Of a stretch of 64,000 bases of DNA, positions 25,234 through 29,030 are shown piece after piece. Numbering within the stretch: position 1 is the stretch's first letter; each line of letters opens with the position of its first letter. The translations under genes and the position numbers were made by a program. The stretch is from positions 1 to 64,000 of the forward strand of contig NZ_SIHY01000004.1 in the NCBI RefSeq assembly GCF_004320535.1, in the 5' to 3' direction. Source of the stretch: Arthrobacter sp. S41. GTDB taxonomy: Bacteria; Actinomycetota; Actinomycetes; Actinomycetales; Micrococcaceae. The notes beneath the pieces were generated by a model that made no database searches, was not told where the DNA came from, and saw nothing but the letters and a program-made list of their open reading frames with translations.

Positions 25234-25308
25234 GCAACAGCGCGGCCGGAGAACCCTCCCACAACAAGCCGACTTTCACTGGACGCACGCATACCCCCGC
25301 CCGTATTC

Positions 25309-25336
25309 TTGAAATACCCCAGGGGGTATGTATAAG
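25309..25336 (+). promoter_or_regulatory. Promoter with CsoR/CstR-type operator in the spacer
   Basis: TTGAAA (25309-25314) and TATAAG (25331-25336) are 16 bases apart. The spacer holds the palindrome ATACCCC-AG-GGGGTAT (25314-25329), the known operator form of CsoR/CstR repressors. A weaker related site, ATACCCCCGCCCGTAT, lies at 25291-25306. Repressor binding would block RNA polymerase directly; the probable repressor is encoded in the same operon at 28566. Confidence 0.8.
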
Positions 25337-25368: not shown

Positions 25369-26754
25369 ATGTTGCTTGAACGCCTCTACGATGAGGACCT
25401 CGCGCAGGCCAGCTACTTTATTGGTTGCCAAGCTAAGGGTGAGGCCCTTGTGGTCGATGCCCGTCGCGACATCTCCGACTACCTGGCTCTGGCTTCCAAA
25501 CACGGCATGCGCATCACCGCCGTTGCCGAAACCCACATCCACGCCGACTACCTCTCCGGCACCCGCGAACTGGCAGCTGCCACCGGCGCCACCAGTTACG
25601 TTTCCGGTGAAGGTGGAGAAGACTGGCAGTACGGTTTTGAAGCCCAGCGACTCTACGACGGGGATGAAATCGCCTTGGGCAACCTACGCATCGTCGCTCG
25701 CCACACCCCGGGCCACACTCCAGAACACCTGGCCTATCTGGTCACCGACGGCGCGTTCAGCAGCTCCCCGGGCTACTTGCTCTCCGGAGACTTCATTTTT
25801 GCCGGCGATCTGGGCCGACCTGACCTCCTAGACGAGGCCGCCGGAGGCGTAGACACTCGTTTTGAAGGCGCCCGCGATCTCTATGCGTCCCTAAAGAAGA
25901 CTCTCGCCGAACTGCCCGACTACATCCAGATCCACCCGGGTCATGGGTCCGGTAGCGCCTGCGGCAAGGCACTTGGCGCGGTTCCATCTACTACGCTGGG
26001 CTACGAGCGCAAGTTCGCTTGGTGGAGCACCTACCTGGCCACTGATGATCAGGACGGTTTCATCGCCGAACTGCTCAACGGCCAGCCAGATGCCCACGCC
26101 TACTTTGCCCGTATGAAGCGGCAGAATCGTCAGGGACCAACTATCCTTGGTGAGCTTGAACAGCTCACAGAGCTCGATGCCGCACAGATCCTTGAGCAGA
26201 TGGAAGCTGGCACGTCGGTATTTGTTGATACCCGCAGTCACACCCAGATCGCTGAAGGCACAGTTCCTGGCGCACTGTCGATCCCCGGCAAAGCAAAAAC
26301 CGCGAGCTTCGGCGCATGGGCCTACGACCCTGAAGAGGATCGTCGTTCAATGGTGGTGCTGGCGGAATCTGTTGGGCACGCAGATGAAATCCGTGCACAC
26401 CTGATGCGCGTAGGGATCGACGCCGTGAAGGGTTACGCACTCTCCCTTGATGGCCTCCCAAGCTACAAGCCGCAGTCAATCACACCTGCACAACTGACTG
26501 ATTTCGACCATGACTTACTGCTAGATGTGCGCAACAAGACCGAATTTGCCGCCGGGCATATCCCTGGCGCCACACAGATTTCCGGTGGTCGAGTGCTGTG
26601 GCAGCAGGACCAGTTGCCAACGGATGGCACCATCGTGACCTACTGCCAGAGCGGCATGCGCAATGCAGTGGCTGCCAGCGCCCTACGTGATGCCGGATTC
26701 AACGTGATTGAGCTCGAAGGTAGTTACCTCGGCTGGTCCAAGCTAGACAACTAA
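25369..26754 (+). CDS. CstB-like persulfide dioxygenase fused to two rhodanese domains
   Basis: The 461-residue protein has the three-part layout of Staphylococcus CstB. The metallo-beta-lactamase fold (1-250) carries THIHADYLSG (His56, His58, Asp60), RHTPGHTPEH and HPGHGSGSACGK, the non-heme iron site of persulfide dioxygenases. A middle rhodanese (about 265-355) lacks the active cysteine (VVLAESVGHADE). The C-terminal rhodanese (about 365-461) keeps it in YCQSGMRN. Family knowledge says it oxidises persulfides to thiosulfate/sulfite in the cytoplasm. It is the first gene behind the CstR-type operator. Confidence 0.87.
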   Translation: MLLERLYDEDLAQASYFIGCQAKGEALVVDARRDISDYLALASKHGMRITAVAETHIHADYLSGTRELAAATGATSYVSGEGGEDWQYGFEAQRLYDGDEIALGNLRIVARHTPGHTPEHLAYLVTDGAFSSSPGYLLSGDFIFAGDLGRPDLLDEAAGGVDTRFEGARDLYASLKKTLAELPDYIQIHPGHGSGSACGKALGAVPSTTLGYERKFAWWSTYLATDDQDGFIAELLNGQPDAHAYFARMKRQNRQGPTILGELEQLTELDAAQILEQMEAGTSVFVDTRSHTQIAEGTVPGALSIPGKAKTASFGAWAYDPEEDRRSMVVLAESVGHADEIRAHLMRVGIDAVKGYALSLDGLPSYKPQSITPAQLTDFDHDLLLDVRNKTEFAAGHIPGATQISGGRVLWQQDQLPTDGTIVTYCQSGMRNAVAASALRDAGFNVIELEGSYLGWSKLDN

Positions 26755-26787: not shown

Positions 26788-27327
26788 ATGACTTCCCCTA
26801 AGACTGTGCTGGACGCTGAAGCACTCAAGTGTCTGGTAGCTACCCCGGATAGCGAGCTCGCGCTGATCGATGTACGCACGGCTGGTGAATTTGAGACCGT
26901 CCACATCCCCGGTTCCTACAACGTACCGCTGGATGAGTTCCAAGCGAACGCTGCCGAGGTGCTGAACAAAATTCCTGGCCGCCCGATACTGATCTGCCAC
27001 AGTGGTAGCCGGGCCACTAAGGCGCAACACGTTCTGCAGGAACTGAATATCACCGGTAGCACCGTTCTCAGTGGTGGTATCACCGCCTACGAATCTGCAG
27101 GTGGCACTATAGTGCGCGGTACACAGCGCTGGGCCTTGGACCGCCAGATGCGCATGACCGCCGGTTCTTTGGTATTAGTTGGATTGCTCGGCGCAAAGTT
27201 CATCTCCCCGAAGTTCGCTTACCTTTCGGCGGGGATCGGCGGTGGGCTTGCATACTCGGCTGTACGCGATAGCTGCCCGATGATCAACGTCCTGTGCATG
27301 GCACCCTGGAACAAGGTAAAGAAGTAG
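26788..27327 (+). CDS. Rhodanese-like sulfurtransferase with C-terminal membrane hairpin
   Basis: The 179-residue product has a rhodanese domain (about 8-110) with the active cysteine in ICHSGSRA. Two hydrophobic segments follow at about 125-165 (DUF2892-like), as in E. coli YgaP, which is membrane-anchored. It would move sulfane sulfur at the inner face of the membrane. It starts 33 bases after the CstB-like gene and ends three bases before the TauE gene, so it belongs to the sulfide-response operon. Confidence 0.86.
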   Translation: MTSPKTVLDAEALKCLVATPDSELALIDVRTAGEFETVHIPGSYNVPLDEFQANAAEVLNKIPGRPILICHSGSRATKAQHVLQELNITGSTVLSGGITAYESAGGTIVRGTQRWALDRQMRMTAGSLVLVGLLGAKFISPKFAYLSAGIGGGLAYSAVRDSCPMINVLCMAPWNKVKK

Positions 27328-27330
27328 ACC

Positions 27331-28200
27331 ATGGAAATTGGACCTCTGCTGATCATGATCTTGGCCCTAGCGGGCGTTGTCGGGCTAGCCCTGGGAATGT
27401 TCGGTGGCGGGGGTTCAATCCTGATGGTTCCGCTACTGAGCTATGTAGCCGCGATGCCCACCAAAGAAGCAATTGCCACCTCTCTACTTGTGGTGGGAGC
27501 AACCTCGGCGGTCAGCCTGTTGCCACATGCGCTCAAAGGTCATGTGCGCTGGGTACAAGGTCTGATTTTTGCAGCCACCAGCATGGTTGGCGCCTACGGA
27601 GCCGGGTTATTGGCCCAAGGAATTCCTGCTCAGCTCCTCATGATCGGCTTTGCAGTGATCATGGTAGGTAGCGCCCGCGGGATGATCCGTGGACGGAAGG
27701 AGCGTGCCAACGCCAGCCTTCCTTTGAGGTTCTTCGTCCCTGTGGGTCTGGGCATTGGAATGGTGACCGGACTGGTGGGCGCTGGCGGTGGTTTTCTGAT
27801 CGTTCCGGCGTTGGCCTTATTAGCTGGCCTGTCCATGCAGCACGCCGTGGGAACTTCCTTGTTGGTGATCACCCTGAATTCAGTTGCCGCCATGTCAGGG
27901 CAGCTTAATGCCCTCTCAATTAATTGGACGCTAGCATTGGGCTTGGCGGCAGCAGCAATCGTTGGATCTTTGATCGGGATGAAAATCTCTCAAAAAATCA
28001 ACGACAGCGCGTTGCGTCGCGGATTTGGTTATTTTGTTTTAGCCATGGGGGTATTTGTACTCAGCCAAGAGCTTCCAGCTCCAGGCGGGCTGATACTCAG
28101 TTGGACAGCGGTGACTGGCGGTGCACTTCTTATCTTGTGCCGCATGCTTCCAACGCTCGACATCCGATGCCCGCTTGTGGCCAAAGGCGGCGGCCTATGA
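27331..28200 (+). CDS. TauE/SafE family sulfite/anion exporter
   Basis: The 289-residue integral membrane protein has about eight to nine helices in two halves. Each half starts with the TauE repeat motif (GLALGMFGGGGSILMVPLLSY near 17 and GMVTGLVGAGGGFLIVPALALL near 147). Members export sulfite, sulfoacetate or similar anions. In cst-type operons TauE removes the sulfite made by the persulfide dioxygenase, which fits the gene order here. Its stop overlaps the next start (ATGA at 28197-28200). Confidence 0.88.
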   Translation: MEIGPLLIMILALAGVVGLALGMFGGGGSILMVPLLSYVAAMPTKEAIATSLLVVGATSAVSLLPHALKGHVRWVQGLIFAATSMVGAYGAGLLAQGIPAQLLMIGFAVIMVGSARGMIRGRKERANASLPLRFFVPVGLGIGMVTGLVGAGGGFLIVPALALLAGLSMQHAVGTSLLVITLNSVAAMSGQLNALSINWTLALGLAAAAIVGSLIGMKISQKINDSALRRGFGYFVLAMGVFVLSQELPAPGGLILSWTAVTGGALLILCRMLPTLDIRCPLVAKGGGL

Positions 28201-28844
28201 AGCCGATAGAACTCACCGCCTACAATTTTGCGACATTCATTGAGAACAATGAGCTGGTGCTTGTGGATTTCTGGGCACCTTGGTGCTCTCCTTGTCGCAG
28301 CTTTGCACCGATCTTTGACCTGGCCAGCGTGCGACACCCGAAAATCGCGTTTGCGAAGGTTAATACCGAAACTCAAAGTGAACTGGCACGAGCAGCCAAA
28401 GTTGCTTCGATCCCGACACTTAGGGCCTTCAAAAATGGGATACTTGTACATTCAAAACCCGGCGCGTTAAACACTGGCGACTTGGAACAGCTGATCGAAC
28501 AGTTCAAGACGCTTACACCGAACGATCACCAGTCCGATGGCCGGCCAGCTAACAAGGAGACAACGATGCGTACCGCTGACGAAGCAACCCGCAAGCGAAT
28601 TCTTAACCGACTCAAGCGCGCCCGTGGCCAGCTTGATGCAGTCATCAATGCGGTGGAAACCGACGGATCATGTCGTGAAGTTGTCACGCAGCTCTCGGCA
28701 GTGTCTACCGCCTTGGATCGTGCAGGCTTCGCCATCGTCTCCACTGCAATGCAGTACTGCATTGCAGATCCAGAAAAAGCTTCCAAAGAAGAAGATGGAC
28801 TGAGCGTCGAAGAACTCGAAAAGCTATTCCTCTCCCTGTCCTAA
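28197..28844 (+). CDS. Thioredoxin in frame with a CstR-like persulfide-sensing repressor
   Basis: One open frame of 215 residues joins two proteins. Residues 1-108 are a thioredoxin with WCSPC (Cys30, Cys33; Ser replaces the usual Gly). From Met124 (ATG 28566) a complete DUF156 CsoR-family repressor of 92 residues follows. AAGGAG lies six bases before ATG 28566, so the repressor can also be made alone. In repressor numbering Cys36 and Cys65 are kept but His61 of copper-binding CsoR is alanine. That is the CstR pattern for sensing persulfide, not copper. No stop codon separates the parts, so a true fusion, an internal start, or both are possible. Confidence 0.85.
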   Translation: MKPIELTAYNFATFIENNELVLVDFWAPWCSPCRSFAPIFDLASVRHPKIAFAKVNTETQSELARAAKVASIPTLRAFKNGILVHSKPGALNTGDLEQLIEQFKTLTPNDHQSDGRPANKETTMRTADEATRKRILNRLKRARGQLDAVINAVETDGSCREVVTQLSAVSTALDRAGFAIVSTAMQYCIADPEKASKEEDGLSVEELEKLFLSLS

Positions 28845-28871: not shown

Positions 28872-29030
28872 ATGTGCCGTCAAGTTCAATGCAAGATTTG
28901 CCAGAAGACCACCTGGGCTGGCTGCGGCCAACACGTTGATTCAGTAATGCGCAACGTTTCGGCCAAGGACCGCTGCCAAGGTCACGAAGCCGAACCTAAA
29001 AAGGGTTTCTTCAAGCGGTTATTCGGCTAG
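28872..29030 (+). CDS. Small cysteine-rich conserved protein (52 aa)
   Basis: The 52-residue product begins MCRQVQCKICQKTTWAGCG, has cysteines at 2, 7, 10, 18 and 35, and ends in a basic-aromatic tail (KKGFFKRLFG). CxxC plus further Cys and His suggest a zinc ribbon-like fold. I recall similar unnamed small proteins in many bacteria with the MCRxxxCxxCxKxTWxGCG start. AAGGA lies before ATG 28872. It follows the CstR part by 27 bases and may be the last gene of the sulfide operon. Function unknown. Confidence 0.8.
   Translation: MCRQVQCKICQKTTWAGCGQHVDSVMRNVSAKDRCQGHEAEPKKGFFKRLFG

Follow-up and report, generated by a model that had tools for sequence, protein, structure and literature searches.

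The ScCsoR circuit of S. coelicolor comprises a CsoR-like repressor, a persulfide dioxygenase, a rhodanese and a sulfite transporter, and its binding motif is ATACC-N6-GGTAT (PMC7533328). CstR of Staphylococcus aureus and Enterococcus faecalis has the DUF156 fold with cysteines at positions 36 and 65 and no histidine at position 61 (CsoR numbering). Persulfides and polysulfides bridge the CstR cysteines between subunits (PMC9774590; PMC9405070), and rhodanese and sulfite exporter genes often adjoin the genes of CstR homologues (PMC10318464). In the portion of the CstR literature covered here, we found no account of the route by which CstR regains its reduced form in vivo. In S. aureus, the thioredoxins TrxA, TrxP and TrxQ act as reductases of protein persulfides (PMC6196236).

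We analyzed a stretch of 64,000 nucleotides of Arthrobacter sp. S41 (hereafter the window) which holds a locus similar to each of these systems. The repressor encoded there has the fold, the two cysteines and the missing histidine of CstR, and rhodanese and exporter genes adjoin it, but its frame also encodes an N-terminal thioredoxin (Trx) and its sensing of sulfur is predicted. The same kinds of genes as in the ScCsoR circuit and the same ATACC-N6-GGTAT motif are present, whereas the summary of that study lists four genes, none of them for a thioredoxin, and no fusion was found there (PMC7533328). The S. aureus thioredoxins TrxA, TrxP and TrxQ, for their part, stand alone (PMC6196236). The Trx-DUF156 arrangement appears to be a new combination of known parts, and it was seen in one genome.

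Translation of the window confirmed the joined frame as it was first noted in the sequence: 215 codons plus a stop codon encode a thioredoxin, a linker and a DUF156 repressor, and no stop codon lies between the two domains (Table 1). The frame is open farther upstream, to position 27924, and comparison with the congeners showed that ATG 28197, the start of Trx, is common to the homologues. The Pfam Thioredoxin domain (PF00085) was found at residues 4-101 with 81.4 bits (cut-off 23.5) and the Trns_repr_metal domain (PF02583, DUF156) at residues 132-211 with 74 bits (cut-off 22.8). The WCSPC thioredoxin described in the earlier note was thus recovered, and W29, C30, P32 and C33 were invariant in a nine-row alignment. 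The NCBIfam equivalog TIGR01068 was missed (94.5 bits against a cut-off of 96.8), so that we call this part a thioredoxin-domain protein with a WCxPC motif rather than by the name of the equivalog; dithiol reductase activity is predicted for it.

Table 1. Features of the thioredoxin-repressor locus (positions counted from the first nucleotide of the window)
Feature	Position	Strand	Basis
Imperfect operator-like site ATACCCCCGCCCGTAT, doubtful	25291..25306	.	2 mismatches to ATACCCNNNNGGGTAT
Operator-like site of CstR/CsoR type, ATACCCCAGGGGGTAT, upstream of the operon	25314..25329	.	Exact ATACC-N6-GGTAT
Metallo-beta-lactamase fold and rhodanese protein, putatively of the persulfide dioxygenase type	25369..26754	+	PF00753, PF00581
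Rhodanese with YgaP-like membrane part	26788..27327	+	PF00581, PF11127
TauE/SafE family exporter	27331..28200	+	PF01925, 162.1 bits
Joined frame, 215 aa	28197..28844	+	ORF reading and Pfam
WCSPC active site, residues 29-33	28281..28295	+	Translation of the joined frame
Linker, 20 codons, contains the ribosome site of the repressor	28506..28565	+	Translation; low-confidence stretch of the model
Shine-Dalgarno AAGGAG	28554..28559	+	Sequence; 6 bases before ATG 28566
CstR-like repressor, 92 aa, own ATG	28566..28844	+	PF02583; matches to 2hh7 and 7mq1/7mq3; start common to congeners
Cys36 codon	28671..28673	+	Alignment to 2hh7
Ala61 codon, CsoR His absent	28746..28748	+	Alignment to 2hh7
Cys65 codon	28758..28760	+	Alignment to 2hh7
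52-aa Cys-rich protein, next gene after cstR	28872..29030	+	Beside cstR in 12/12 genus genomes with cstR, own included

The probability that 20 random codons contain no stop at the base composition of the window is about 0.48, to be multiplied by one third for the frame, and the joined frame would therefore be an ordinary outcome once the stop of Trx was lost. A sequencing or assembly error that hides a true stop codon between the two genes is very improbable: no homopolymer of the linker exceeds two bases, the genes of the operon align in frame to those of the relatives and the assembly is 99.99% complete in 7 contigs, although only one genome carries the join and the check covered the assembled sequence.

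The repressor part aligned without gaps to M. tuberculosis CsoR (2hh7), positions 7-67 to 7-67. Cys36, Ala61 and Cys65 in CsoR numbering correspond to residues 159, 184 and 188 of the joined frame, so that the full DUF156 repressor with its histidine lost was borne out, and both cysteines were invariant in the nine-row alignment. By overall similarity alone, CsoR 2hh7 (E 1.7e-9) was a slightly better match than 7mq3 (1e-8); 7mq1 was also matched, and 7MQ2, which is listed alongside 7mq1, is named CstR in the figure legend of a review (PMC9774590).

The genes of the locus stand in the order MBL-rhodanese protein, rhodanese with a membrane part, TauE, Trx, CstR and a 52-aa Cys-rich protein, and the stop of TauE overlaps the start of Trx as ATGA. 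The MBL-rhodanese protein missed all NCBIfam cut-offs. The ATACC-N6-GGTAT sequence at 25314 was the sole exact match in the window. When up to two mismatches were allowed, four matches were found in the window where 1.28 were expected, and 5 of 100 shuffles gave at least four; we retained only the exact site, since the imperfect site alone is at the level of chance. An operator-like site of the same form was present in all six congener loci examined, before the dioxygenase gene in five of them and directly before cstR in G002. These surroundings fit a persulfide-response operon. Genes for sulfur detoxification and a CsoR-type operator-like site, to which the repressor would bind, thus adjoin the repressor, and together with the cysteine pattern they support its description as CstR-like, DNA binding and sulfur sensing being predicted properties.

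The earlier note had also proposed that the repressor can be made alone, from its own ribosome site AAGGAG six bases before ATG 28566. This site was found, and GGAG precedes the start of cstR in 12 of the 12 genus genomes with cstR, own included (AAGGAG in 7 of the 12), which together with the start codon itself supports separate synthesis of the repressor. The conservation of the site is a stronger argument than the site alone, since a pairing with the 16S tail no worse than that of the stretch before ATG 28566 is obtained for 4.8% of random 20-base stretches. Pairing energies were -8.2 for the Trx start and -8.3 for the cstR start, and a low output of the fusion through a weak Trx ribosome site was dropped as an idea on these values. 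Because the Trx start pairs equally well, and random stretches do so at the frequency given, we do not rank the two products by abundance. An RNA structure at the Trx-cstR junction was not supported (z-score 0.53).

Two products are expected from the sequence, a free CstR of about 10 kDa and a Trx-CstR fusion of about 24 kDa (masses estimated from length). Any ribosome that makes Trx should also make the fusion because no stop separates the two parts, and the fusion is expected to be the only form of this Trx in this genome. Free CstR is expected too, since the cstR start with GGAG is present throughout the genus genomes with cstR. The repressor thus has its own conserved ATG and ribosome site at 28566, yet the frame is open from 28197.

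We then compared the locus with those of relatives. The genus set consisted of 18 genomes, 12 of which have this repressor (83 to 100% identity), including the genome under study (G000), which is the joined case. An intact separate Trx was found in nine congeners and ended at a stop in 9/9. Seven of the nine pairs have 20 to 43 bases between this stop and the downstream start of cstR, while the end of Trx overlaps that start in another frame in G013 (by 1 base) and in G007 (by 8 bases). The stop of Trx thus moves in this genus, given that the Trx frames of G007 and G013 cross the cstR start in another frame, and the join would be the in-frame extreme of this movement.

Comparison was extended to pairs of the same phylum, a pair being a Trx upstream of a repressor within 400 bases in the fetched loci, which do not represent all pairs of the searched genomes. 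The loci held 49 repressor matches, 4 of them duplicates; 21 pairs were initially found and the four duplicates (L041-L044) were dropped, which left 17 distinct repressors with a Trx at most 400 bases upstream. The separate pairs have homologous genes in the same order, and the operator form and the flanking genes are common in the congener loci examined, but in 16/16 of them a stop terminates Trx, either ahead of the cstR start or in overlap with it, so that the genes were joined in 1 of the 17 pairs. Same-frame neighbours, seen in 11 of the 17 pairs (own included), are not evidence of a join, as a same-frame pair scores better as a single match and many of the pairs come from close relatives. 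A Trx tail with L-D-M and a short stretch after the fold was seen in 13 of the 17 pairs; G000, G011, G013 and G007 are without L-D-M. In G050 (L017) the order is reversed, with the repressor first and then Trx on the same strand.

That relatives would share an established Trx-CstR fusion was not borne out, as the nine congeners with an intact pair have separate genes and no joint frame. This counts against a conserved design, while the joint frame and the expected fusion in this genome stand. The nearest relative, G011, shares 97% identity in the repressor and 73% in Trx. The Trx of G016 is disrupted: it lacks the active-site part, and what is left is split over two frames (L162, 2809-2971); a Trx piece (query 47-79) and cstR, which is 97% identical, together occupy an open frame of 173 codons. 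G016 was rejected as a fusion of complete domains, its Trx being a remnant without the active-site part. In G002 the dioxygenase, rhodanese, TauE and Trx genes are absent from the 6.5 kb around cstR, while cstR, the operator-like site and the 52-aa gene are present. CstR thus persists without this Trx, broken in G016 and absent from beside cstR in G002. The operator-like site directly before cstR in G002 (L165, 3125-3500) points to control of cstR and the 52-aa gene by CstR itself.

A wider search with the joined protein covered 147 relatives and samples of 395 family, 396 order, 394 class and 396 phylum genomes, which overlap. A second frame with both complete domains was absent from the matches listed for each of these samples, G000 being the only case; the check for DUF156 proteins with an N-terminal thioredoxin elsewhere in the family (395 genomes) likewise gave none among the matches listed. 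The four larger samples were searched with E-value limits of 1e-33 to 1e-37 and at most 7 candidates scored per genome, so that diverged fusions could be missed. A joined frame in more than one species, which would define a family of Trx-DUF156 fusions, was thus not found (1/17 pairs).

Other phyla were covered by a plasmid collection and one scan of genome contigs. Among the plasmids, 911 records matched the joined protein and four did so with at least 80% cover in one place. None of the four was retained as a fusion: Rhodococcus pRHL1 and pRho-G13 carry Trx, a stop and then a non-DUF156 protein, which we take to be AhpD-like, and Meiothermus pMtWR-220 and Streptomyces NA03103 have two annotated genes each. 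The best plasmid matches to the operon were from Arthrobacter, at about 67-74% identity, and two Arthrobacter plasmids with a similar gene set have their DUF156 gene apart and on the opposite strand. The contig scan returned at least 80 loci, mostly proteobacterial thioredoxins by title, with no repressor match among the matches listed. Among titles and the beginnings of abstracts on CstR, CsoR or DUF156 with thioredoxin, we found no description of a Trx-DUF156 fusion.

On these comparisons, a chance event in a single lineage explains the join better than an established sensor of a new type would. The locus is probably an ordinary CstR-controlled sulfur-detoxification operon in which the stop of Trx was lost in this lineage, after its split from G011, and this change was probably close to neutral. 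Ribosomes translating Trx would run through the ribosome site of cstR and make the Trx-CstR fusion, while other ribosomes would start at ATG 28566 and make the free 92-aa CstR, the ancestral product, as the conserved site and start suggest. CstR would bind the site at 25314, and, by analogy with what is known for CstR, persulfides or polysulfides would link its two cysteines across subunits, upon which CstR would come off the site. The Trx part is probably a general reductase of protein persulfides and polysulfide bridges, as the separate Trx of the relatives would be, and fusion chains can probably enter CstR tetramers beside free chains. The locus would also represent an early stage of gene fusion in which the ancestral internal start is retained.

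Selection on translational coupling is compatible with a lost stop, and we regard it as a possible but tentative explanation: Trx ribosomes crossing the cstR start would tie the output of the repressor to translation of the operon, and the fusion would be a by-product. In 3 of 10 genus pairs the reading frame of Trx extends past the start of cstR (in frame in G000, out of frame in G013 and G007), and TauE and Trx also overlap, but the other 7 of the 10 pairs have a gap between Trx and cstR.

The selective constraint on the two parts was then estimated. Between G000 and G011, residues 1-100 of Trx gave a dN of 0.18 and a dS of 1.48 (ratio 0.12), and the repressor gave a dN of 0.02 and a dS of 1.45. 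The dN/dS of Trx was 0.15 against G013 and 0.32 against G007, with dS near saturation, and dS was undefined against the other six of nine congeners. No excess of changes or faster evolution of Trx in G000 was found in six relative-rate comparisons against G011 and G013 with three outgroups (p 0.37 to 1.0), and at the sites invariant in the nine other Trx, G000 differs only once (V69). On the low dN/dS, the rate tests and this single change, Trx looks constrained rather than decaying. These tests combine the periods preceding and following the loss of the stop, whose age is hardly bounded, and show neither selection for the fusion nor neutrality; dN/dS and the relative-rate tests gave no evidence of selection for the join and none against it. 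The constraint on Trx, with no excess of changes, nevertheless speaks against a simple loss of the stop, and a single genome represents the species in these comparisons. The dS of about 1.5 to the nearest relative leaves room for an early origin of the join within the lineage, in which case the constraint on Trx would speak for a useful fusion.

Such a useful fusion would be a single-chain persulfide sensor with a built-in reductase, accompanied by free sensor from the internal start, whose mixed tetramers reset when sulfur stress ends; we consider this unlikely. In tetramers of free and fused chains, the tethered Trx would reduce bridges (di-, tri- or tetrasulfide) in the CstR of the same or an adjacent chain, and the repressor would recover faster once sulfane sulfur falls. 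Thioredoxins reduce protein persulfides (PMC6196236) and CstR forms such bridges (PMC9774590), so that a tethered Trx could reset the sensor, although an untethered Trx encoded in the same operon could do so equally. Both domains are complete with their active-site residues, Trx is not decaying and the age of the join is only loosely bounded, but 16 of the 17 pairs are separate and the relatives manage with a separate or broken Trx, or with none beside cstR. This self-resetting is thus an improbable alternative to the lost stop. Under either reading, the natural Trx-CstR allele and the relatives with separate genes provide a natural contrast for the question whether the sensor is reset by thioredoxin.

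The tether would probably be flexible, as the linker was modelled with low confidence: residues 109-124 had a pLDDT below 50 in a structure model built on nine rows with stops read through. Block means of pLDDT were 80 to 93 for Trx and 50 to 81 for the repressor, pTM was 0.50 and three of five models reached a mean pLDDT of only 52 to 56; the model is uninformative on tetramers. A first alignment of the joined protein with homologues was left unused, as it placed Trx rows on the repressor.

The 52-aa Cys-rich protein encoded after cstR matched nothing in Pfam or NCBIfam at E 0.001, and matches to it were found in 59 of 98 genomes. Its gene stays beside cstR even in G002, where little else of the operon is present at the locus. 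The 52-aa protein may be a partner of these repressors. By coordinates read by eye, a DUF156 match also lies no more than 170 bases away from it in G001, G005, G010, G014, G020, G025, G031, G037, G095, G111 and G113, a list that is a lower bound, while in others (e.g. G018 and G058) no DUF156 match was that near among the matches listed.
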